Shown: positions 17,144-30,750 of the stretch, piece after piece
How positions within the stretch are numbered: the stretch's first letter is position 1
Layout: every line of letters starts with the position of its first letter
Source: Methanomassiliicoccaceae archaeon DOK
GTDB lineage: Archaea; Thermoplasmatota; Thermoplasmata; Methanomassiliicoccales; Methanomethylophilaceae
DNA: 64,000 bases
Direction of reading: 5' to 3'
Assembly: GCA_009911715.1 (NCBI GenBank)
Contig: CP047880.1
Span: 1,178,001 to 1,242,000 of the forward strand
Notes under the pieces: generated by a model
What the model was told of the DNA's origin: nothing
What the model saw: only the letters and a program-made list of their open reading frames with translations
Database searches by the model: none
Program-made: the position numbers and the translations under genes

Positions 17144-20100
17144 ATGAACAGTATAACGAAAGCAATAGCACTGCTTGTCGTGCTTCTGACAGCAACAGCG
17201 GGAGTTGCCATGATGGCGGACTCCTCTGATGCTGCCCCAGCAGACATACAGGAACCGGTGCCCGCTTCGAATCCCGAAGCCGGGACCGCTATCGCAAAAG
17301 TGGACGGAACACCCTATACGGACTTCGAAGTCGCCGTCGACGCAGCGATATCTTCCAATAAAACGTTGACCCTACTGAACGACTACCAGATTACTAATCT
17401 GAACCTGGACGCCGAAAGCGTTACCATAGACCTCAACACAAAGATCCTATCTTTCGAGAGGATCAAGCTGATCAACGCATCGTCACTGACCTTCGAGAAC
17501 GGAACACTCAACGGACTGTACATCGGAGCGGCCAATGAGGCATCCATTGCCGTAAACACGGGATGCTCTGTGACGCTCAACGATGTGAACTACTACACCA
17601 AAGCCACGGGACTGTTCCCGAGTGGGGACGCTGCCTCCGTCACAGTCAAGAACGGATCTGTTGTCCATGCAGTCGGATTCTGCATCGGGACCAACGCCGG
17701 TTCGAGCTCCAACTACTATGTTGACATAAAAATCAGTGATTCGGGAATCTACGCGGATTCCGACTCCAGTGCCGCTGGAACAGCCGTATTCTACAACGTC
17801 CCGGGATCCCTGACGATAACCGACAGCACCGTCCAGGGATACTTCCACGGGGTCATCGTGAGAGGCGGAACGGCCGTGATATCCGGATCCACGATCACGA
17901 ACACGATGAACCTCTCCGGCTGGGAGACATACTATGATTCCGAGCCCTGGGGGACCGGGAACTCCATCAAACTCGGCGCACTGGTCCTCGGGAACAGGGA
18001 CAACGCATCCTACAACTATCCCACGGACGTCACCCTCATCGACACCGACGTCATCTCTGACGGAACATACGGCGCGAACTACTCCGCGGTGTACATGTGG
18101 GCCAATCCCGATCCCGAGAACGGTGTCAACCTCGTGTACGATTCGGCCTGCACGTTCAGCAACCTCAACTCCACGACCAACGACCTGTTCTTCTACGGAA
18201 ACAACGGAGCCAACATCACCGCCGGACTCGCGGTGGCCCAGGCCGGGGACAGGATCTACAACAGCCTCCAGGCGGCCATCGACGACGACAACGAGGAGAT
18301 CACCCTGGTCGGCGACACCAAGGAGAACGTGGTCGTAGACGGACAGACTGTGACTCTGGACCTCAACGGCAAGACGGTCACCAACGTCGACGACCACACC
18401 ATCACGGTGAAGTCCGGGGAGCTCACGGTAAAAGGCAAGGGTACAGTCCAGAACCTCACCCACCAAAAAGCCGCCCTCGCAGCATACCCCGGCACCAAGG
18501 TGACCCTCAACGGCGGAACCTTCGACAGGACCAACGAGACCGGCACCGGCCCCGACACATCCGGGAACAACTCATGGTACACCATCAAGAACCACGGTGA
18601 CATGACGATCGACGGAGCCACCGTGAGGAACGGTGGCGGGTTCTCCAGCTGCATCAACAACGGCTGGTACAGCGGCTCCGCCCAGGGCACCCCAGGCAAC
18701 AACGACCTCGCGGTCTACGCAGGCACCAACGCGAAGCTGACCATCGTCAGCGGGAAGATCGACGGCGGACTGAACGCCGTCAAGAACGACGACTACGGAG
18801 AACTCCTTGTACAGGGAGGAGAGCTCACCAACTCGGTCCAGGCGACCATCCTCAACTGGAACATCGCCACCATCGAGAAGGGTACGTTCAGCGCCACGAG
18901 CGATGCCAAAGCGGTCATCCTCAACGGGAAGATCGACGGCACCATGGACAAGGGCCAACTGACGATCTCCGATGGAACGTTCTCCGGCCCTGTCGGAATC
19001 CAGATGATGTCCGGAGGCGTCGGCATCGGAGACGTGACCATCACCGGCGGCACGTTCAACATCTCATCGGACAACATCATCGACCCCCTGACAGGCACGG
19101 AGACGAACGTCCAGGTGTCCGGGGGCTCGTTCTCGGACGACAGCGTCCTGGCATACCTCGTCGAGGGGAAGGGACTCGTCGAGAATGGAACGATGTTCGA
19201 TGTCGTGGACGTCCACACCGTCACATACACGTTCAACGACACCACTTACATAGAGAAGGTCATCAGCGGACAGACGGCCACACAGAACACGATTCCGGCT
19301 CTGCCTACGCTTCCTGAAGGATGCGAGTATGATTTCGGAGAGTGGGATAAAACGGCCCCCGTCACAGAAGACGTCAGCGTCTCGGTGAAGGCCGAGATCA
19401 CATCCCTGACGGTCGCCATCGGCACATCCACCGTTGATGGGGTTACAACACTTACTGCGACTGTGGACTCCACCGCGAGCGGCACTCCGGCGTACACATG
19501 GTCCTCCGGAGAGGCCACGGAGAGCATCACACCGTCTGTCGGCGGAACCTACGACGTCACCGTGACCCTCACCGTCACAAGCGGCGATGTCACCGTCACC
19601 GGAAAAGCGAACGCATCGGTCACCTACACACCTTCCGAAAGCGGAAGCACCACCACGACCACCACGAACCCCGACGGTTCCACCACCACTGTGGAGACCG
19701 ACTCCGACGGTTCGGTCACCGAGACGACCACCAAGACTGAGACCACGGAAACTGGCAACGAGATCACCACGGTCACCACGACCGGGAGTGATCCTTCCGG
19801 AAGCCAGACGACCAGCTCAACAGAGGTCACCATAGAGGCCGCTTCCGGAACTTCTGGAAGCGTCTCACTGCCCGAGGAGGATGTTAACTCCGTCATTGAA
19901 AGCATAGCCTCTGCCGGCACCACCACCAACACGATCTCCGTCAACATCGGAGAGAACGACACCGTCACGATGGGTTCCGCCGCGATCTCCGCCATTGCAG
20001 AGTCCAACGCGGTGCTCGAGATCTCCAATGAAAACGCGACCGTCGTCGCCGACGGCGATGTTATCGAGACCCTCTCCACAGGAGACGTCTCCATCACGGT

Positions 20101-20620
20101 GGGCTCGGCAACCCATGACAACCTGAACGAATCGCAGCAGCAGTCCGTGCCAGAGAACTCAACAATCGTCGAGCTCTCAGCCACTGTGGGAACAAGTCCC
20201 GTCCACGATCTGAACGGAACCGTGGAGGTCACCATGACCTACACACTCCCGTCCGGGATCGATGCGGACGATGTGATCGTGTTCTACGTCGACGACGACG
20301 GTGCGCTCCATCAGATGAGAACAGTGTACGCCGAAGGAATCCTGACGTTCTACACCACCCACTTCTCCTACTACTTCGTGGGAGACAGGTCCATGATTCC
20401 CTCTGTGGATCCGGAGCCCTCTCCCGGAGAGGACGACCAGCCCGTGGTCGTCCCGCCGGTGGATGACGATGACGACTACGTCCCGCTTCCGCCGATCGTC
20501 GACACCGACGGATCCGGATCATCCGGCGGAGACGACACCGTAAAGATCGTCGCCTGCGCCGCCGCGGCTGTGGTGGCAGCGCTGATGGCAGCGTTCCTCA
20601 TCATCAGCAGAAGGGATTGA
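17144..20620 (+). CDS. Adhesin-like surface protein, type B, Thr-rich stalk
   Basis: 1,158 residues from the ATG at 17144, chosen because GGAGG lies four bases upstream and a clear signal peptide follows (AIALLVVLLTATAGVAMMA, cleavage near SSDAAPA). An in-frame ATG at 17087 would add 19 residues and spoil the signal. Residues about 30-680 are beta-helix-like. A Listeria-Bacteroides-like strand motif (EGCEYDFGEWDKTAPV) comes next, then a Ser/Thr stalk (TTTTTTNPDGSTTTVETDSD), a globular region with YYFVGDRSMIP, and the DDDDYVPLPP plus transmembrane anchor. The C-terminal ~450 residues are closely related to the next gene. Expected to be anchored in the membrane with a likely glycosylated Thr stalk (inference). 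Confidence 0.87.
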   Translation: MNSITKAIALLVVLLTATAGVAMMADSSDAAPADIQEPVPASNPEAGTAIAKVDGTPYTDFEVAVDAAISSNKTLTLLNDYQITNLNLDAESVTIDLNTKILSFERIKLINASSLTFENGTLNGLYIGAANEASIAVNTGCSVTLNDVNYYTKATGLFPSGDAASVTVKNGSVVHAVGFCIGTNAGSSSNYYVDIKISDSGIYADSDSSAAGTAVFYNVPGSLTITDSTVQGYFHGVIVRGGTAVISGSTITNTMNLSGWETYYDSEPWGTGNSIKLGALVLGNRDNASYNYPTDVTLIDTDVISDGTYGANYSAVYMWANPDPENGVNLVYDSACTFSNLNSTTNDLFFYGNNGANITAGLAVAQAGDRIYNSLQAAIDDDNEEITLVGDTKENVVVDGQTVTLDLNGKTVTNVDDHTITVKSGELTVKGKGTVQNLTHQKAALAAYPGTKVTLNGGTFDRTNETGTGPDTSGNNSWYTIKNHGDMTIDGATVRNGGGFSSCINNGWYSGSAQGTPGNNDLAVYAGTNAKLTIVSGKIDGGLNAVKNDDYGELLVQGGELTNSVQATILNWNIATIEKGTFSATSDAKAVILNGKIDGTMDKGQLTISDGTFSGPVGIQMMSGGVGIGDVTITGGTFNISSDNIIDPLTGTETNVQVSGGSFSDDSVLAYLVEGKGLVENGTMFDVVDVHTVTYTFNDTTYIEKVISGQTATQNTIPALPTLPEGCEYDFGEWDKTAPVTEDVSVSVKAEITSLTVAIGTSTVDGVTTLTATVDSTASGTPAYTWSSGEATESITPSVGGTYDVTVTLTVTSGDVTVTGKANASVTYTPSESGSTTTTTTNPDGSTTTVETDSDGSVTETTTKTETTETGNEITTVTTTGSDPSGSQTTSSTEVTIEAASGTSGSVSLPEEDVNSVIESIASAGTTTNTISVNIGENDTVTMGSAAISAIAESNAVLEISNENATVVADGDVIETLSTGDVSITVGSATHDNLNESQQQSVPENSTIVELSATVGTSPVHDLNGTVEVTMTYTLPSGIDADDVIVFYVDDDGALHQMRTVYAEGILTFYTTHFSYYFVGDRSMIPSVDPEPSPGEDDQPVVVPPVDDDDDYVPLPPIVDTDGSGSSGGDDTVKIVACAAAAVVAALMAAFLIISRRD

Positions 20621-20675
20621 ACGGAAACCTGAATAACCTCTTACCCCCGGCACAGGGGTTCGTACTGTGCCATTC
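20621..20675 (+). terminator. Type B 3' element, copy 3 (compensatory pair)
   Basis: Stem GGCACAG (20649-20655) with CTGTGCC (20665-20671), loop GGGTTCGTA. Relative to the other copies one G-C pair is replaced by A-T on both sides, direct evidence for a conserved helix. Confidence 0.65.
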
Positions 20676-20689
20676 CCCTCTTCTTCAAG

Positions 20690-20792
20690 ATATACTATAA
20701 ATCATTTAGAGCATATTCCACGTCCAAAGATTTTCGCGGGGGGGGGGGACCAGACCCTGGCTCAACCCTTCGCCCTCCGACAAGGAGAAGAA
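20690..20792 (+). promoter_or_regulatory. Promoter, G11 tract and RBS-sequestering leader of type B gene 4
   Basis: TATA-like ACTATAAATC near 20692-20701; eleven G at 20738-20748; hairpin CCAG/CTGG (20750-20760), differing in sequence but in the same place as the other leaders; CTCC (20775-20778) pairing with GGAG (20784-20787). ATG at 20793. Upstream it shares CATATT, CACGT and AGATTTTC blocks with the preceding gene's leader. Confidence 0.55.
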
Positions 20793-23700
20793 ATGAAAGA
20801 GAAAATACTGACCATCGCTGCGATTTTGGCTGCGGTGGCAATGATCGTTCTGTCCGTTCCGGCATCCGAAGTCGAGGCGGACGAAGCTAATCCGTTCACA
20901 GTCGTGGACGGAACGGACTATCCTACACTCGGTGACGCGTTGACCAACGTGTCCAATGCGGGCACTATACAGTTGAACACCAACGCAACCTTCATCGCCG
21001 ATGATAAGCTGAACATAAACAAGTCAGTGACCTTGGATCTCAACGGATTCACATTGACGACATCCACGACCCTTACCGTCGCCAAAGATATGACTTTAAC
21101 AATTGAAGACAGCAGTGCCGAAGGCACGGGTCTGTTCTCCACGTCGAAGCAGTACGCTATCGACGTCTACGGAACCTTGAAATTGGAGTCCGGCAACATG
21201 GAAAGCTCCGCTGATACCATCATCAGGGTATATGGAAGCGGTGCATTCGAGATGACCGGAGGAACCATAGAAGGTTCCAAGGGACAGGGAGTTTTCGTGA
21301 TGGGCTCAGCCACCATAACTGCCGGAACCATAGGTGCAACTGAAACGGCAAACTCCTCTTACGCCGCCCTCAAGCTTTCCACCAATGGCAGTGCAACTAT
21401 CGGTACGGCCGACACATCCCCATATCTGTACTCTCTGAATCCCAACGGACTTGATGTCATGATGGTCTCGGGTATCGTTGGAAAGGTCAACGGAGACTTC
21501 GGCGCTGACAGCCAGTTCAACGGCGGCAAATTCGAGAGCTCTCCTGAGAATTATCTCCCCAGTAAATACGCCGCCCAGTCGGACAGTTCCGGTTATTGGA
21601 TCGTAGTTCCATTCACCGATGACCACGCCAAAGCCTCAATCACGAAATCCGACGGAACCGTCAATCTGTACCCCACCCTCATTAGCGCCGGAAAGGCCAT
21701 GGAGAGCGGCGACACTCTGACACTGCTTGAGGATTACAAAGGAGACAGAGTGGTCACCGTCAACATCTACTACGGTACCATCGACCTCAACGGGTGTGAT
21801 GTTACCTGCACGAAGACTGGGACATCCGGTTACGGAATCAACATAGCAAAGGGAACCGGCACCTATGATTCCTCGAACACGAACACCATAGTCATCACAT
21901 CCGATACAGAATCCACCATCGAGGCAAGCTACCCCGTATCGATCAGCAGCGGGAACAGCAAAAACTCTGTCTACATAAAGGTCGAAGGCAGTGTCACACT
22001 GGAATCCACAGAAGGAAGAGACCTAATCAAGCTGGGTTCTGGCTCCTCTGCCCTGTTCACAGAGAACATCAGAGACTGCTTCGTCAACGGGGGATTCGTC
22101 GCAACCGTAAATGATGTGGAGTACGTCTACGGCACAGCCTCAGCCGCGCTCAGAAACAGCGACGACGGCTATGCTAAGATGCTGAACAACTACACGGGCA
22201 ACATCGTACTCGATTCTCCCAGAACCTACACTCTCGATCTTGACGGCTACACCGTCACATACAACACCACCATCGACCCTGACAATCTACAGGCCGCCGT
22301 CACAATCTACGGCGAGACGACACTCACAATAAAGAACGGGAAGATTGAGACCAACGTTTCTGGAATCGCTCCAGGGCTGGTACACAGCGGTGGCACCATC
22401 GAGAACAACGTGTCGCTGACTCTGGACAACGTCCAGCTGACCGCGGACAACATGTATGCAATATACAGCAACGGAACCTGCGAGAACATCCAGGTCAAGG
22501 TCATCAACGGCTCAAGTGTGGTCTGCACATCGTCCACAGGCGTTGGAATCTACTTCCCTGCAGAAGGCTCCCTGACCATCACAGATTCCACAGTCAAGGG
22601 AGGAACCGGAATCGAAGTCCGCAAGGGCTCCCTGGAGATATCCGGAGATAAGACCGTCATCGAGGCCACCGCCTCGAAATATTCCGTACACGAAACCCCT
22701 GACGGGGGAGGAAGCACAGTCCTCGGTGCTGCGGTAGCGATCTCCCCGTACAGCGGAATCGATTCGATGAGCGTCGACATCTCCGGTGGAACCTTCACCG
22801 GCGCGGTGGCGTTCGCACAGGCACATGCCGATGAGGAAACCGTCATGCCCACTTTCGACTTCTCCATCAGCGGAGGAAGTTTCACATCCACCGGGAAGGA
22901 CGTGAACAGCGATACATACCCCGCCATAGTAACCGAGAAGGGTGAGGTCACTGGAGAATTCATCTCCGGGGGCTCGTTCTCGGACGAAAGCGTCCTGGCA
23001 TACCTCGTCGAGGGGAAGGGACTCATCGAGAAAGGAACGATGTTCGATGTCACGAACATGTATACGATCACATACACGTTCAACGAAAAGGAGTACACGG
23101 AGACTGTCCCTGAAGGCTTTGCCCCCAGCACTGATGTGCTCCCCGAGCTCCCGGCAGGTTGCGTGTACGACTTCGGGACATGGGACAAAACCGCCGCCGT
23201 CACAGAAGACACCAGCGTCACCGTGACGGCCGAGATTACCGAACTGTCCGTGACGATATCCGTTTCGGTTGAGGACGGCACCACTTCACTCAGGGCGATT
23301 GTCGAGTCCTCTGCGAGCGGCGAGACGACCTATGCCTGGAGCAACGACGAAGACAAGGAAACCATCACCGTTACGGAGAGCGGAGAGTATACCGTCACAG
23401 TCACTCTCACAACCACTTCTGGAGAAATCTCGGTCTCCGGCATTGCGACTGCGAAAACGACATACACCGCTACCGAGAACGGAGGTTCCAGCACGACCAC
23501 TGAGAACTCCGACGGGTCCAAGACGGAGACCGTCGTCGAAGAGGACGGATCCATGTCAGAGACCACCGAGAAGAGCGAGACCACAACATCCGGCAATACC
23601 GTTACGACGGTCATCACCACCGGGAAGGACTCCTCCGGAAAAGAGATCGAAAGCACCGCATCCGCCACAATCGATGCGACTCGGTCTCAGACTGGAGATA

Positions 23701-24452
23701 TCGTTGATATCCCTGTAGGAGACGTCACCGTAGCGGTCGAAAGCATCAAATCTGCTAACGACAAGACCGTCTCGATAAGCATCGGTAACAACGACAAGGT
23801 AACTATCGCCCCCGAAGCGATGGAAGCCATCTCCTCATCCGAAGCGAAACTGGAGATCTCCAACGATACGGCGAAGATTGTGGCGGACAAGACCGTCGCA
23901 AACACGCTCGCCTCTGACCAGAGTGTCTCCATATCCGTGAGTTCCGCTGAACACGCCGACCTGAATGACACTCAGCAGCAGTCCGTTCCCGAGAATTCCA
24001 CGATCATCGAGCTTTCAGCCACTGTAGGATCTGACCCGATCCACGAACTGGGAGGAACGGTGGAGGTCCACATGAAATACAGCCTCCCCGAAGGGATCGA
24101 TGCGGACGATGTGATCGTGTTCTACGTCGATGATGAGGGTGTGCTGCATGATATGGTGACCAAGTTCGCTGACAACATCATCACGTTCTTCACGAACCAC
24201 TTCTCCTACTACTTCGTGGGAGACAGGTCGATGATCGTGCCAGAGGATCCAGAGCCGTCTCCGGGTGAGGATGACACCCCTGTAGTCGTTCCACCCGTTG
24301 ATGATGAAGATGACTACGTCCCACTCCCCCCGGCCATCGTCGAAGAACCGGGATCGTCGGATGATGACACCGTGAAGATCGTCGCCTGCGCCGCCGCGGC
24401 TGTGGTAGCAGCGCTGATGGCCGCGTTCCTTATCATAAGCAGAAGGGACTGA
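20793..24452 (+). CDS. Adhesin-like surface protein, type B, paralogue of preceding gene
   Basis: 1,219 residues from the ATG at 20793. The start is supported by AAGGAG just upstream and a signal peptide (KILTIAAILAAVAMIVLSV, then ASEVEA). The N-terminal ~700 residues are unrelated in detail to the preceding gene but also beta-helix-like. From the GGSFSDESVLAYLVEGKGL motif to the end the two proteins align throughout: Thr/Ser stalk, YYFVGDRSMI, DDYVPLPP and anchor. At the junction (about 22,966-23,050) the DNA is nearly identical to 19,116-19,200, much closer than the downstream parts, suggesting gene conversion at that point. Function as a surface adhesin is inferred. Confidence 0.87.
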   Translation: MKEKILTIAAILAAVAMIVLSVPASEVEADEANPFTVVDGTDYPTLGDALTNVSNAGTIQLNTNATFIADDKLNINKSVTLDLNGFTLTTSTTLTVAKDMTLTIEDSSAEGTGLFSTSKQYAIDVYGTLKLESGNMESSADTIIRVYGSGAFEMTGGTIEGSKGQGVFVMGSATITAGTIGATETANSSYAALKLSTNGSATIGTADTSPYLYSLNPNGLDVMMVSGIVGKVNGDFGADSQFNGGKFESSPENYLPSKYAAQSDSSGYWIVVPFTDDHAKASITKSDGTVNLYPTLISAGKAMESGDTLTLLEDYKGDRVVTVNIYYGTIDLNGCDVTCTKTGTSGYGINIAKGTGTYDSSNTNTIVITSDTESTIEASYPVSISSGNSKNSVYIKVEGSVTLESTEGRDLIKLGSGSSALFTENIRDCFVNGGFVATVNDVEYVYGTASAALRNSDDGYAKMLNNYTGNIVLDSPRTYTLDLDGYTVTYNTTIDPDNLQAAVTIYGETTLTIKNGKIETNVSGIAPGLVHSGGTIENNVSLTLDNVQLTADNMYAIYSNGTCENIQVKVINGSSVVCTSSTGVGIYFPAEGSLTITDSTVKGGTGIEVRKGSLEISGDKTVIEATASKYSVHETPDGGGSTVLGAAVAISPYSGIDSMSVDISGGTFTGAVAFAQAHADEETVMPTFDFSISGGSFTSTGKDVNSDTYPAIVTEKGEVTGEFISGGSFSDESVLAYLVEGKGLIEKGTMFDVTNMYTITYTFNEKEYTETVPEGFAPSTDVLPELPAGCVYDFGTWDKTAAVTEDTSVTVTAEITELSVTISVSVEDGTTSLRAIVESSASGETTYAWSNDEDKETITVTESGEYTVTVTLTTTSGEISVSGIATAKTTYTATENGGSSTTTENSDGSKTETVVEEDGSMSETTEKSETTTSGNTVTTVITTGKDSSGKEIESTASATIDATRSQTGDIVDIPVGDVTVAVESIKSANDKTVSISIGNNDKVTIAPEAMEAISSSEAKLEISNDTAKIVADKTVANTLASDQSVSISVSSAEHADLNDTQQQSVPENSTIIELSATVGSDPIHELGGTVEVHMKYSLPEGIDADDVIVFYVDDEGVLHDMVTKFADNIITFFTNHFSYYFVGDRSMIVPEDPEPSPGEDDTPVVVPPVDDEDDYVPLPPAIVEEPGSSDDDTVKIVACAAAAVVAALMAAFLIISRRD

Positions 24453-24510
24453 ACAGAAACCTGAGAAACCGCTTACCCCTGGCACGGGGGTCAAACCGTG
24501 CCTTTCTCAG
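24453..24510 (+). terminator. Type B 3' element, copy 4
   Basis: Stem GGCACGG (24481-24487) with CCGTGCC (24496-24502), loop GGGTCAAA, followed by TTTCTC. Ends the adhesin island. Confidence 0.6.
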
Positions 24511-25780: not shown

Positions 25781-27325
25781 ATGTCAGACCACGAAGCAAC
25801 GGGAACATACATGAACAGCTGGGAGCACCAGACGGACATCGAGACCCTCAGGATCTTCCTCGAGAACCAGGGCTCCTCACCGGCAACCATCGACCGCTAC
25901 GTCCAGTACTCCAACCACTGCCTGAAGGTGCTCGGCGGAAGGATATCACCGAGGGATGACTGCACGATCGTGCAGGAGGAGCTTGAATCCAGGATGTCCG
26001 AGCTGAAGCCTCTGACCAGGCAGCGCTATATGAGCGCCTGGCACATGTTCGTTAGAGCAGTGGATTCCGGCCGTCCGGAACCCGGCCCGACACCGTATCA
26101 CCTGACCTCGGACTTCGACTCCGACCTCGAGCGCTACCGCGCGTGGATGGTCGGATTCGGCTACCGCGAGGAGGCGACCGTCAAGAGCGCCAGGTGCGTC
26201 CGCCACTGCTGGAAGCTCATGTTCCCGATATTCGGTGACCGTCATCCCGAGGATGTGGATGAGGACGTCATCGAGAGACTGGACTTCGAGATGGCCGGCA
26301 AGAACTACGCTCACCGCAAGTTCAACCTGTGCTCCCTCGGCAGGTTCGTGCACTTCATCACCGGCGGACCCGATCCGTACCGTCAGCTGACGGTACCCGA
26401 ACGCCAGACGGATTACTCCAAGTACATCCTGACCATCATCCGTGGGAACCCCTTCGAGGGGGAGCTGGAGAACTACGCGAGATCCCTCTACCAACGCGGG
26501 ATGCGTGACACCACCGTGTCCAACAAAGTCGACTACTGCATGGCATGCATCTCCCGCCTCTTGGGGAGCGGATGGAACGGGAGGCTGGAGAACATCATCC
26601 CCGACGACATGTACTACCTCCGGGACCTCTTCGAAGACGTGAACCAGTCCACAGCGAGGACATACATGTCCACATTCGGGAACTTCATCCACTTCCTTAC
26701 TGGCAGCAACCCTTACGAGGCAGCGAAGATCGTGTGGAACAAGGGTCAGAAGGTCAACCGTGTCTTCATCCAAACAGAGGAGTGGAGGAGACTCAAGTCC
26801 GTCGCTGAACCGGACGAGATGCTGGTTCTTGCCCTCGGCGCCGCAATGGGCCTCCGCCGTGCAGAAATCGCCAATTTGAAACTGAACGATATCTCCGAGG
26901 ACTCCATCCTGGTGCGCGGCAAGGGTCACGGCCCTAACGGCAAGGTGGACACGATGCCTATGCCGAGGATCGTCAGGGAGGCGATGGAAGCGTACATGCC
27001 GATGAGACAGAGAATAATCGACGAGTACGGCGACAACTCCCACGGCCACCTTCTGATCAGACGTTTTACCTACGCAAGCGAGCCAATCCCGCCAGACACT
27101 ATCGGGGACATGGTCTACCGCCTCGGTAAGAGGGCGGACGTGGAGGTGACCACACACAGCCTCAGGAGGCTGTTCGCGACGACAATGAACGATAACGGTG
27201 TAAAACTAGACACCATACGTCGCATGATGCGTCATCAGTCCCTGGACACCACTCTGAAGTGCTACATAAACGCCGATCCAAGACTGGTAAAAAGCGCCAC
27301 GGACTGCATCGACGAGGCCCTCTGA
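25781..27325 (+). CDS. Tyrosine recombinase/integrase with three core-binding-like repeats
   Basis: 514 residues, far longer than XerC/D-type enzymes (~300). The catalytic domain (about 325-514) has the full set: R359 (GLRRAE), K381 (RGKG), H459 and R462 (HSLRR), H485 (RHQSLDTT) and nucleophile Y495. Upstream are three similar helical units, each ending in a related motif: FVRAVDSGRPEPGP (about 88), FVHFITGGPDPY (about 190) and FIHFLTGSNPYEA (about 305). They look like triplicated SAM-like N-terminal core-binding domains. AGGAG at 25770-25774 precedes the ATG. Expected to do site-specific DNA cutting and rejoining. It may move the adjacent repeat-flanked module or rearrange the adhesin island; neither substrate is proven. 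Confidence 0.88.
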   Translation: MSDHEATGTYMNSWEHQTDIETLRIFLENQGSSPATIDRYVQYSNHCLKVLGGRISPRDDCTIVQEELESRMSELKPLTRQRYMSAWHMFVRAVDSGRPEPGPTPYHLTSDFDSDLERYRAWMVGFGYREEATVKSARCVRHCWKLMFPIFGDRHPEDVDEDVIERLDFEMAGKNYAHRKFNLCSLGRFVHFITGGPDPYRQLTVPERQTDYSKYILTIIRGNPFEGELENYARSLYQRGMRDTTVSNKVDYCMACISRLLGSGWNGRLENIIPDDMYYLRDLFEDVNQSTARTYMSTFGNFIHFLTGSNPYEAAKIVWNKGQKVNRVFIQTEEWRRLKSVAEPDEMLVLALGAAMGLRRAEIANLKLNDISEDSILVRGKGHGPNGKVDTMPMPRIVREAMEAYMPMRQRIIDEYGDNSHGHLLIRRFTYASEPIPPDTIGDMVYRLGKRADVEVTTHSLRRLFATTMNDNGVKLDTIRRMMRHQSLDTTLKCYINADPRLVKSATDCIDEAL

Positions 27326-27338
27326 GCCAATTTAAACC

Positions 27339-27370
27339 AAAACCCCGGCGCATGTCGGGGTATTTTATAT
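27339..27370 (+). terminator. Terminator after recombinase
   Basis: CCCCG ... CGGGG stem (about 27342-27359, loop GCGCATGT) followed by TATTTTAT, 16 bases after the stop codon. Confidence 0.6.
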
Positions 27371-27380
27371 TCCGTCCGTC

Positions 27381-27553
27381 AATTCACTATCAGCGAGACG
27401 ATTGGATCTCGTCGATGTTCTAGAGGCATGGGATGCGCCTCGAAGACGCGGATGCACTTCGCATCCGTGTTCTCCGTCCATTCCGTTGTTTCCATGGCCA
27501 TCGGCATGCTGAAATGGCTCGTCGATACCGACAAGTCCATTTCGGTCGTCGAA
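27381..27553. repeat. Long direct repeat, left copy (173 bp)
   Basis: Matches 29939-30111 at a constant offset of 2,558 bp. Only two differences occur after the first ~10 bases (GATGCACTTC against GATGCGCCTC). It contains short inverted repeats such as GACGA...TCGTC and CGGATGC...GCATCCG. It lies between the recombinase terminator and the AT-rich module, so the pair brackets the ATPase-nuclease genes like attachment or target-duplication-scale repeats. A 63-codon minus-strand frame is open in both copies, but I do not call it a gene. Confidence 0.85.
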
Positions 27554-28021
27554 CATAATAACAATGGATGTATCTGGAGATATATCGGATTAACTGAGTA
27601 AACTCTAGATGCACAATCGTGAACACTTGGACTGAACACAATTACGTGTTAGGTTCGGGTGTTCACAATTTTTGAATGAACGGATTTTACACGACGAAGA
27701 TCGTCAAAACATATGTCAATACAGAAAATACGGCTTTCTGGATGAACACCAGGCAAACAACCATAGGATTGAGATTAGCTAGGTCCTATATTGTCTAACT
27801 GACAGTTTCACATCGACTGTTAAACACTATGAAATGCTCAAAGAACACGAAGTCATCTCTTCAAACAATTCCTATTCGTTCGTGATTGTTCTGGCGACAT
27901 CTAGACAATGATACTCATAATCTTCGTAGGCTCTTCATTCAGCTCCACTGATATGAGCCGAGACCTCTGGGCTGGCACCGTCATCCGTACTTGGAACGTC
28001 CGTCATTTCCGAGGACAAGCT
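27554..28021 (+). pseudogene. AT-rich gene-poor stretch with possible relic of a winged-helix regulator
   Basis: No intact gene is seen. Between about 27783 and 27911 the + strand encodes DSFTSTVKHYEMLKEHEVI, then a stop. This has the look of the recognition helix and wing of an ArsR/MarR-like winged-helix protein. The preceding sequence continues only in another frame, so if real it is broken and truncated. Short inverted GTGAACAC/GTGTTCAC-like arms occur at about 27618-27670. The low GC content suggests imported DNA. Confidence 0.3.
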
Positions 28022-28552
28022 CTATATGTTCTTGAAGATGCGTTCTACGGTGGATCCTTTGAGCTTGTCACCCGCCTTTTTCGTGAACTCCTTCACACCG
28101 AGAACTCTAACCTCATCGTAATAGAGCGTGTTGTTGGCAGCGTCCTTCTTACCATTGTAACGTTTCAGACAACTGGAAATAGGCACGCTCATGGCATTTG
28201 CGCTCAGTGCCGCGGTGATATCATCGCGGACATCCTGCGACACTACCCAGAGAACTTTTTTCTCTGTAGGATTCCTCTTCACGAAACCGTTGAAGAAATA
28301 TAGTGATTCCATCGCCTTACACGGCAGTTGCTCTATGATTTCCTTCAGTTTATGTTCTGTCCCCAGAGACTTGAACTCTATGAAATACGTGGTTTTTCCA
28401 CTGATACAGATGCAATCCACACTGCATGGCCTGAATCCGCGACCCTTACAGGCCCTCGCGACTACATGATCATAGTCTATGCCTACAATCCCTTCATCCA
28501 ATTCTGAGAAATCATCATGGAGATCGTCAGAGAGGAGCTTAACAGGTTTCAC
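28022..28552 (-). CDS. PD-(D/E)XK nuclease-like protein paired with ATPase
   Basis: 176 residues from a GTG (28552), 35 bp after the ATPase stop; CTGGAAG upstream may serve as RBS. The short stretch VDCICI followed by FIEFKS (D46, E59, K61) matches the D...ExK core of the PD-(D/E)XK nuclease superfamily, a strand pair ending in ExK. The rest has a Lys-rich C-terminus (KEFTKKAGDKLKG). With the upstream ATPase it forms a two-gene, AT-rich, repeat-flanked cassette, reminiscent in design of ATPase-plus-nuclease anti-phage systems. The family is not one I can name. Alternatively it could be a restriction-endonuclease-fold protein without nuclease activity. Confidence 0.6.
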   Translation of the reverse strand: MKPVKLLSDDLHDDFSELDEGIVGIDYDHVVARACKGRGFRPCSVDCICISGKTTYFIEFKSLGTEHKLKEIIEQLPCKAMESLYFFNGFVKRNPTEKKVLWVVSQDVRDDITAALSANAMSVPISSCLKRYNGKKDAANNTLYYDEVRVLGVKEFTKKAGDKLKGSTVERIFKNI

Positions 28553-28587
28553 GTCACCGGCTTCCAGATACCACTAAGCAGTACTCA

Positions 28588-29754
28588 TCACCAGAACCTC
28601 GAAGCAGTCTCCTGTATAGGGTCGGACATCTCCTGGTAGACGCTGTTCAGATTTCCACTGACATCCCTCATAACTACCTCTCCGTCATCTCCATAGGAAA
28701 GATGATAGTACCGGGCAAGATCATCGTCCCCTCTACTATTTGCTTCCACGGACATAAGCAACTGTGGACTGTGCGTGGTCATAATTATCCTGATGTTGAG
28801 GTCACGAGCCAAGATAACCAGAATGTTGCCTAGGACGTTGATCCATTGCGGGTGGAGATGGACCTCTGGTTCGTCCAGTAACAGGATCGAGCCTTCGTAG
28901 AGCTGTCCGTTGTCCACGAGCTTGCGGATAGTTCCAAATACCTTGATGCCAGACGCAACATTCCTTGGACTTAGAATATGCCCCCCGGGCGATTTGTATC
29001 TCAGACCGTTCTTGGTGTTGATGAACATTCCTGGAATGGATTCGTCCATGACCTTGTCCAACTTCTCTAAGTTAGAACGGTACGTCCCTTTCATTATGAT
29101 GTTGCCTGAGTCCATGTTGAGCAAACGCCACACGTCCGTACGGTGATTGGTACGCCTGATAGACCATATCAGGCTATCATCGACGTTGAAAGGGGAGTCA
29201 AAATATACGACGCGAGGTATGCGCCTCCTGTTTCCCTTGCAAGAGATCTCACCTCTCTTGCGAACGTTGCAGGACATCGAAGGCCCCCCTGTGATGCTTA
29301 CCGAGGCAATATTCTCTGAATCGACATTCCTGAATTGAGAAACGCTCTCAAACTCTGAATTGATTCTTCTACGGACGATTTTTCCATAAAAGTCGTCGTC
29401 CACTTTACCTTCTTTCAAATCGATAGCATATTCCAGGCTCTGCTTGTCCTGCTTATCTTCATCATCAATATGCTTGCGTAAATAATCTATGATTTCAAGA
29501 TACTCGGATTCATCGACATCTCCGAGTAGACGGCTCCGATCCTCATCCGAGTGCCTGAACATTAGCAAATCCAAGGTCTCATCGATCTGATTGTTCTTGA
29601 TGAGTTCGAAATCGCTCGGACACACCAATACCGAGTACAGAGCCTTAAGTATGGTGCTCTTGCCAGTGCTGTTCTGCCCGGAAATGACTGTGATGTTCCC
29701 GGCTATGAACTCAACTTTGCTCAGGCAACCGACATTCTTTATCGAGACCTTCAT
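28588..29754 (-). CDS. AAA/ABC-type ATPase (AAA_15/AAA_21-like), candidate defence ATPase
   Basis: 388 residues. Walker A GQNSTGKST (26-34); Walker B LLLDEPEVHLHPQW (about 300) with the typical histidines of OLD/RecF-like ATPases; H-loop TTHSPQLL (about 340). Codon use is AT-rich. The promoter is AT-rich sequence upstream (29755-29935). It is followed by the PD-(D/E)XK-like gene on the same strand, and the pair is bracketed by 173-bp direct repeats next to a recombinase. ATPases of this type act as sensors in systems such as PARIS, Septu and retron/abortive-infection cassettes; which, if any, applies here is unknown. A housekeeping role is unlikely given the genomic context (inference). Confidence 0.8.
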   Translation of the reverse strand: MKVSIKNVGCLSKVEFIAGNITVISGQNSTGKSTILKALYSVLVCPSDFELIKNNQIDETLDLLMFRHSDEDRSRLLGDVDESEYLEIIDYLRKHIDDEDKQDKQSLEYAIDLKEGKVDDDFYGKIVRRRINSEFESVSQFRNVDSENIASVSITGGPSMSCNVRKRGEISCKGNRRRIPRVVYFDSPFNVDDSLIWSIRRTNHRTDVWRLLNMDSGNIIMKGTYRSNLEKLDKVMDESIPGMFINTKNGLRYKSPGGHILSPRNVASGIKVFGTIRKLVDNGQLYEGSILLLDEPEVHLHPQWINVLGNILVILARDLNIRIIMTTHSPQLLMSVEANSRGDDDLARYYHLSYGDDGEVVMRDVSGNLNSVYQEMSDPIQETASRFW

Positions 29755-29938
29755 CGATATCTGAGCATAGCATCGTAGTCGCGGATATTATGGTATCGTA
29801 CAAACATTCGATATTATAGGAAACGTTGAGAGAACGAATAAGAATTAAAAATGTGAAATTCAAGAACTTCAATAAACATACCTTGATTCCGATGGTTTTC
29901 CAATCTCCAAAATATCGGTTTTTTATACTTCTCCCGTC
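29755..29938. other. AT-rich intergenic promoter region of the ATPase module
   Basis: No gene seen. Strongly AT-rich. Minus-strand TATA-like sequences lie within 29780-29870. The right direct repeat begins at 29939. Confidence 0.4.
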
Positions 29939-30111
29939 AATCTACCATCAGCGAGACGATTGGATCTCGTCGATGTTCTAGAGGCATGGGATGCGCCTCG
30001 AAGACGCGGATGCGCCTCGCATCCGTGTTCTCCGTCCATTCCGTTGTTTCCATGGCCATCGGCATGCTGAAATGGCTCGTCGATACCGACAAGTCCATTT
30101 CGGTCGTCGAA
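29939..30111. repeat. Long direct repeat, right copy (173 bp)
   Basis: Second copy of 27381-27553, closing the cassette just upstream of the ATPase promoter. The GC content rises immediately beyond it. Confidence 0.85.
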
Positions 30112-30162: not shown

Positions 30163-30750
30163 TCAGGAACCGCTTCGTACCTTGACGAGCACGGCGTTCA
30201 GCCAGACGGTGCCGCGGGAATCGGAGTTCAACCAGACGTCCTCGGCCGGGAGCCCAGCATCCCCCGCCATCCTGACGAGTCCATCCACGGTCATGTCCGT
30301 GTACCAGCGTCCGTCACGGATCCCCTCGAAGGTACCCTCCTTGAACGACACGTAGGCCGCCCCGCCCTTCCTGAGGGCCCTGCAGATCAATCCCAGGACG
30401 ACGGGTATCTGATCAGCCTTCAGATGGAGCAGCGAGGCGCAGGCCCAGACGCCGTCGAACTCGTCCTCGTAGTCAAGCTCCAGGAAGTCCAGGCGCCTGA
30501 CCTCCGAACCGAGATTGGACGATGCCACACGGCACATCCCCTCCGAACCGTCCACCGGCACCACCTCGCACCCTGTCTCCCTGAATGCGAGCGTGTCCCT
30601 GCCGGAGCCGCAGCCCAGGTCAAGTATCCTGGCGCCGGGATCGAGACGGGAGAGGAAGCGCCGCCTGATGTCGGAGACGTCGTTTCCGAAGGTGGATTCG
30701 GAGTATCCCTCCGGGTCCCCGTCGTAGAACGCCCTTGTGACATGTTCCAT
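30163..30750 (-). CDS. Class I SAM-dependent methyltransferase
   Basis: 195 residues. Motif I ILDLGCGSGRDT (about 41-52), the acidic ribose-binding residue in VVPVDGS, motif II/III DFLELDYEDEFDGVWACASL, then LKADQIPVV and RALRKGGAAYVSFKEG, typical of small Methyltransf_25/11 enzymes. Nothing identifies the substrate. It lies just outside the right direct repeat and has the GC-rich codon use of the chromosome, so it is probably not cassette cargo. Convergent with the cassette repeat; divergent from the DUF1847 gene. Confidence 0.85.
   Translation of the reverse strand: MEHVTRAFYDGDPEGYSESTFGNDVSDIRRRFLSRLDPGARILDLGCGSGRDTLAFRETGCEVVPVDGSEGMCRVASSNLGSEVRRLDFLELDYEDEFDGVWACASLLHLKADQIPVVLGLICRALRKGGAAYVSFKEGTFEGIRDGRWYTDMTVDGLVRMAGDAGLPAEDVWLNSDSRGTVWLNAVLVKVRSGS

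Follow-up and report, generated by a model that had tools for sequence, protein, structure and literature searches.

We analysed a stretch of 64,000 nucleotides from Methanomassiliicoccaceae archaeon DOK (contig CP047880.1, positions 1,178,001 to 1,242,000), hereafter the window, which contains a two-gene cassette located between long direct repeats and next to a tyrosine recombinase gene. Both cassette genes are intact open reading frames (ORFs) encoded co-directionally on the minus strand, an ATPase gene first and a gene for a nuclease-like partner second, with 35 bp separating the ATPase stop codon from the start of the partner. The features of the locus, in window coordinates, are as follows:

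25781-27325, plus strand: tyrosine recombinase of 514 residues, a possible insertion agent (Phage_integrase PF00589, 3e-18)
27359-27553, plus strand: left direct repeat, with a 173-bp core at 27381-27553 (self-comparison of the window)
27554-28021, no strand: AT-rich gap (41% guanine plus cytosine, GC) from the left repeat to the nuclease-like gene, with no assigned gene (GC content and ORF list)
28022-28552, minus strand: putative PD-(D/E)XK nuclease-like effector of 176 residues (invariant residues, fold neighbours)
28588-29754, minus strand: OLD/SMC-like ABC ATPase of 388 residues, predicted sensor (AAA_15, AAA_21 and PADLOC matches, AlphaFold model)
29917-30111, plus strand: right direct repeat, with a 173-bp core at 29939-30111 (self-comparison; edge of the conserved backbone)
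30163-30750, minus strand: flanking methyltransferase, the first backbone gene, outside the system (PF13649, 1.4e-15)

An original prediction, made from the letters of this DNA, had described an AT-rich operon between near-identical 173-bp direct repeats beside a tyrosine recombinase, and each of these elements was recovered. The cassette genes are foreign in base composition. The GC content is 0.41 in the left gap, 0.465 in the nuclease gene, 0.476 in the ATPase gene and 0.34 in the right gap, compared with 0.58-0.65 in the flanking genes (0.58 for the recombinase and 0.64 for the methyltransferase); at third codon positions (GC3), the values are 0.55 for the nuclease gene and 0.60 for the ATPase gene versus 0.80-0.82 for the recombinase and methyltransferase. 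The pair was probably acquired horizontally. The repeat cores are identical at 168 of 173 bases, far beyond chance, and ungapped extension lengthens them to 195 bp with 185 identical positions (95%), while the second-best match in the window covers 30 bases. Compared with shuffled sequences, the repeat folds better on either strand (z -3.5 and -3.1), and it represents no known RNA family, since Rfam at gathering thresholds matched nothing in the window. The predicted motifs were also located in the intact ORFs, with GQNSTGKST and LLLDEPEVHLHP in the ATPase and D46 together with E59-F60-K61 in the partner.

The window ATPase matches the Pfam families AAA_15 (1.4e-18) and AAA_21 (1.8e-18). In PADLOC, the best match was HEC-02A (4e-28), followed by NsnB, AriA, Old, PD-T4-4_A and PtuA, and all of the matching models represent known or candidate defence systems. 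The AlphaFold model of the protein (predicted local distance difference test, pLDDT, 75.1; predicted template modelling score, pTM, 0.79) was related by VIA to SMC heads, Rad50, retron/Septu PtuA and OLD with Z scores of 16-19. Through alignment, the Walker A, Walker B (DEPE) and H-loop TH residues were found to be invariant. These matches identify a predicted ATPase of the OLD/SMC-like ABC type, which may act as the sensor of the pair.

The gene of the partner starts with GTG and ends with TAG. In an alignment of six archaeal partners, D46, C47, E59, F60, K61 and K79 (numbered on the full window protein, start codon counted) are among the few invariant residues, and when 16 partners of archaeal, gut-bacterial, phage, plasmid and viral-collection origin were aligned, only D46, E59, F60, K61 and K79 were invariant. 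The AlphaFold model (pLDDT 75.1, pTM 0.79) has as its best Foldseek matches Can2, the BspD6I small subunit, Hjc-type resolvases, McrC and Mus81, and VIA relates it to Cfr10I, Can2 and BspD6I; all of these we take to be PD-(D/E)XK nucleases. HamA was also present among the fold neighbours. A search of PDB sequences with the nuclease profile gave one chance-like match, to PCNA (E 0.048). The assignment is based on the sequence pattern combined with a consistent list of fold neighbours, as no single score carries it. We therefore describe the partner as a putative PD-(D/E)XK nuclease-like protein, with D46, E59, K61 and the helix lysine K79 as candidate catalytic residues. The nuclease core proposed in the original prediction agrees with this, since the D, ExK and K residues are invariant in the 16 sequences and the fold neighbours are mostly PD-(D/E)XK enzymes.

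A profile built on the first four nucleases detected the nuclease in 7 of the order's 147 genomes. In samples of the class (5 of 400 genomes) and the phylum (3 of 389), both of which overlap the genomes of the order, it had matches inside the same family only; a richer profile again detected 7 genomes among 102 in the family. In all six related loci, tblastn placed the ATPase directly upstream of the nuclease, which gives 7/7 with the window. The ATPase itself was found at E<=1e-30 in 8 of the 147 genomes of the order and beside the nuclease in seven of them. In the eighth genome (G021), the match spans only positions 186-404 of 407, and no nuclease signal was detected near this partial ATPase. 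On contig 119 of the same genome (L129), the genes downstream of the ATPase remnant appear by eye to be those of the G004 pair, which suggests decay at one site.

Homologous pairs were also identified outside the archaea. With the window ATPase as query, a single match was found among 50,697 phage records and two among 72,556 plasmids. In two of these records, a phage contig from human faeces and a Klebsiella plasmid, the ATPase gene overlaps a partner gene whose product has the S-x-D...EFK pattern, and the third record, from Sulfuricystis, has no such partner next door. The window nuclease as query returned no match in either collection. The Klebsiella plasmid (L060, K. pneumoniae pMB6975_2) is mobilizable, measures 5.9 kb and carries a divergent pair directly after the replication gene.

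ATPase profile scans recovered at least 11 loci from genome contigs and at least 19 from viral contigs. Among the matches listed, 14 of 30 loci have a near-full-length ATPase match, and in 12 of these 14 the next gene matches the nuclease profile at E<=1e-5 (9 of 11 when the three loci used to build the profile are set aside), with the neighbour-gene E-values computed on a small ORF set only. L093 and L094, as well as L096 and L097, appear to be identical within the 14, and the partner in L093/L094 has no lysine in ExK. The two misses are L092 (an 82-residue ORF, 1.4e-4) and L095 (0.12). The 16 partial ATPase matches listed include one (L105) whose neighbour scores below 1e-5 and four in which no ATPase ORF was found by the script. 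Gene order is kept in the non-archaeal pairs, with near or overlapping junctions, and homologous pairs are present in gut Bacillota, on prophage contigs and on contigs of the viral collection. The co-occurrence of the two families in other genomes, put forward in the original prediction as a check, is thereby observed on both sides, in all seven archaeal loci and in the 12 listed bacterial or viral loci.

Comparison of a profile of the six archaeal nucleases with one of five partners from gut Bacillota, the faecal phage contig and the Klebsiella plasmid gave a probability of 96.7 and an E-value of 4e-10 over 135 columns. The closeness of archaeal and gut-bacterial members is based on this comparison, because the tree is mostly unresolved on the window's side. 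Two nuclease profiles (A1 and A8) run on the viral contigs produced pattern matches, none of them confirmed as a relative. The occurrence of one family in archaea, gut Bacillota, viral-collection contigs and a Klebsiella plasmid suggests cross-domain exchange.

The surroundings of the archaeal copies were inspected for known defence genes, enrichment in defence islands being a check proposed in the original prediction; such genes adjoin two of the six copies outside the window. In G017, a ThsB-like TIR gene (2.3e-64) and PDC-M50A (3.5e-34) are located upstream of the pair, and in G026, about 2 kb downstream, there are matches to AbiLi (1.7e-66) and, over a short length, to AbiLii (3.7e-10). 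The neighbours in G063 and G002 yielded weak domain matches only, and those in G004 and G086 were judged by eye only.

Comparable pairs have been described in bacteria. WonAB, encoded by the WASA-1 prophage of Vibrio cholerae, combines an OLD-type ABC ATPase with a small PD-(D/E)xK nuclease, the 16.1-kDa WonB. According to that report (PMC12137116), protection needs both genes, the ATPase residues and WonB K71, and infection is aborted while translation stops and the chromosomal DNA stays intact; WonB is toxic only when WonA is present, simple sequestration is excluded, and the suspected target is RNA. The same text relates WonAB to PD-T4-4 and to the "OLD-ABC ATPase + novel REase" (restriction endonuclease) operon of Krishnan et al. 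2020, with the bacterium Anaerovibrio lipolyticus as an example (cited in PMC12137116 and PMC12409358). PD-T4-4 of E. coli is described as an ATPase and nuclease pair (PMC9519451, PMC12137116), and PMC12839542 reports, in 594 taxa, OLD-ABC ATPases paired with HNH, PD-(D/E)XK or PIN nucleases in BREX and related systems.

WonAB resembles the archaeal pair as a two-gene operon in which the ATPase is followed by a small PD-(D/E)xK nuclease, and it is often located on mobile DNA, whereas it is bacterial and laboratory-tested. In the VIA listing for the window partner, no row of WonB-like proteins was present. The operon of Krishnan et al. shows the same pairing and the same described fold, according to the citing papers. 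For PD-T4-4, the PD-T4-4_A models match all seven archaeal ATPases (best 7.5e-27), whereas the window partner has no match to PD-T4-4_B, a model that also matched nothing in its controls. PARIS, Septu, Gabija and class 1/2 OLD share a related ATPase head with the same motifs, whereas their effectors differ from the window partner, being TOPRIM in PARIS, Gabija and OLD and HNH in Septu. PARIS was ruled out because the partner shows the PD-(D/E)XK pattern and no AriB match, and Septu because the partner has no PtuB (HNH) match. Gabija, in which the ATPase is fused to TOPRIM and accompanied by the UvrD-like helicase GajB, was ruled out by the 388-residue length of the ATPase, with Pfam matches that end at the ATPase domain and no other large ORF between the repeats, and classical OLD by a partner that is neither TOPRIM nor HNH. 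On this last ground, the exclusion of PARIS, Septu and Gabija made in the original prediction holds.

HEC-02, a candidate system in PADLOC, offers a further comparison. It has the same gene order and sizes, and at seven plasmid loci the ATPase is followed by a HEC-02-matching protein of 165-182 residues; an acid..ExK pattern can be read by eye in most of the seven, and the glutamate and the helix lysine are invariant in their alignment. The model PDLC04217 (HEC-02B) gave three marginal matches in 243 genomes of the phylum, one of them (L064) without an ATPase alongside and the other two short and broken by stops. A literature search on HEC-02 and NsnB found no description. The HEC-02 labels of the PADLOC models PDLC04145 and PDLC04146 look swapped, since the model labelled HEC-02A has 170 positions and fits the small partner, whereas the one labelled HEC-02B has 344 and fits the ATPase. 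In L068, the Methylomonas koyamae plasmid pLM6, a HEC-02 pair is embedded in a BREX locus, flanked by brxC and pglX.

We consider it probable that the cassette belongs, as an archaeal representative, to the two-gene family in which a PD-(D/E)XK nuclease accompanies an OLD-type ABC ATPase, with WonAB and PD-T4-4 as its experimentally tested members in bacteria. From these bacterial relatives we infer defence activity, control of the nuclease by the ATPase and arrest of the host. The ATPase would dimerise through its nucleotide sites and watch for a sign of viral replication; once triggered, it would release or activate the small nuclease, which would cut nucleic acid, either RNA or DNA, so that the cell would be arrested before virus particles are made. 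Overall, the original prediction was right about a real feature, the nuclease call and the pairing, and wrong in finding a match to no known system. Its proposal of a new defence module fails, since pairs of this kind have been published (WonAB and PD-T4-4 in PMC12137116; PMC12839542), and HEC-02 is analogous; the cassette represents a divergent archaeal offshoot of antiviral gene pairs already described. No new principle of immunity is revealed by it. The recently described ATPase and PD-(D/E)XK abortive systems are nevertheless extended into an archaeal lineage with little-studied defences, and the D, EFK and helix K residues provide a compact signature for finding further members.

Several observations weigh against this assignment. 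The antiviral role of the archaeal members is predicted from their genes, and WonAB and PD-T4-4 were likened to them through descriptions and models; the PD-T4-4_B model had no match in the genome, nor in its controls. The fold evidence is modest, with a best Foldseek E-value of 0.028 and none <=0.001, and VIA Z scores of about 6, below the value of 8 advised for the tool. The window partner has no meaningful match among Pfam, NCBIfam or PADLOC models, and no recognised defence gene was found beside the window pair, where only eight proteins were scanned with Pfam and three with PADLOC. Finally, the effector is often broken, with three of the seven archaeal nuclease genes disrupted by in-frame stops or a frameshift.

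Among these three, the G004 gene (L002 1519-2016) has a TAG just before EFK, the G026 gene (L013 1480-2103) has one near the C-terminus, and the G017 gene (L012 1474-1872) contains a frameshift and, in the shifted frame, a TAG at the place of that in G026. The corresponding ATPases are open, and the coding similarity of the nuclease resumes past the TAGs. TAG is read as pyrrolysine by some archaea.

The similarity to HEC-02 raises the alternative that the cassette belongs to this PADLOC system, composed of HEC-02A and a HEC-02B of about 170 residues, rather than to a WonAB-like branch. The top-ranking PADLOC model for the window ATPase, HEC-02A, and the shared two-gene plan of the seven plasmid loci point in this direction, as do weak, in-register HEC-02B matches (E 0.003-0.02) of two related archaeal nucleases. 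We regard it as unlikely, because all eight HEC-02 ATPases are separated by a 100/100 branch from the group that the window ATPase forms with its archaeal and gut-bacterial relatives, and because a genuine HEC-02 ATPase (L062) scores 183-266 bits on the HEC-02A models versus 81-97 for the window protein. The window nuclease itself has no HEC-02B match, and the profile link to the HEC-02B partners is marginal (E 0.002, probability 14). The pair could also be a selfish toxin-antitoxin or maintenance module, in which a toxin nuclease, restrained by the ATPase, would serve the inserted element, not antiviral defence. A short AT-rich insert with flanking repeats and an adjacent recombinase would suit such a module, as would the occurrence of homologues in the viral collection and on a small plasmid, and the relatives in which the nuclease is damaged beside an intact ATPase, as if the toxin had been lost first. 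The dependence of WonB toxicity on WonA, with sequestration excluded in PMC12137116, argues the other way, and the ThsB and AbiL neighbours in two relatives point to defence; we hold this explanation to be quite improbable.

How the pair reached this position bears on a further alternative, in which the repeats would have arisen by simple segmental duplication or ectopic recombination and would have nothing to do with the recombinase or with mobility of the cassette. The recombinase gene lies outside the repeat pair, its end at 27325 being separated from the extended left repeat by about 34 bp. Usual attachment cores are far shorter than repeats of this length. No empty site was found in the own genome, in the relatives searched or in nine backbone loci. 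No comparable non-coding repeat pair was observed at eight other recombinase loci (six from relatives and two from the own genome), where repeats overlapped ORFs or sat in unrelated positions. These points favour the duplication, which we rate as a real possibility somewhat short of an even chance. Against it, the genes between the repeats are of foreign composition, the 1.89-Mb genome contains two copies of the repeat only, the remaining 149 of the 150 relatives searched have none, and the conserved backbone ends no more than about 60 bp from the right repeat. The latter was observed in G023, where the strong tblastx similarity run ends at window position 30173; the synteny plot is noisy, and only this run was used. 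In nine loci of relatives (about 1.5 kb of flank each), DUF1847 and the methyltransferase are adjacent in four, and none of the nine contains the repeat, the recombinase or the cassette-side neighbour genes. The cassette is therefore positioned at the edge of a lineage-specific stretch. The repeats probably mark a lineage-specific insertion and are most simply the two ends of one that brought in the pair, perhaps through the adjacent recombinase, and recombinase-driven mobility of the cassette is plausible.

Homologues of the recombinase were identified in 30 of 60 genomes searched. An integron-like cassette platform was unsupported, as the eight other recombinase loci showed no equivalent arrangement. 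A more far-reaching proposal is that the recombinase and the structured 173-bp repeat form a dedicated landing site that would swap antiviral cassettes, with the present one an abortive-infection pair, and that the TAG-containing effectors might need TAG decoding, tying their activity to an unusual translation step; we consider this very unlikely.

Two other repeat arrangements were observed. In L057, near-perfect hairpin repeats of about 60 bp (830-890 and 1419-1476, partly masked) are present on a contig that also carries two recombinase genes side by side. Within the window, long diverged direct repeats are common to two large, repeat-rich genes for surface-protein-like products (19118-24491); they measure 300 nucleotides at 76% and 129 nucleotides at 90% identity and are located about 3.8 kb apart.

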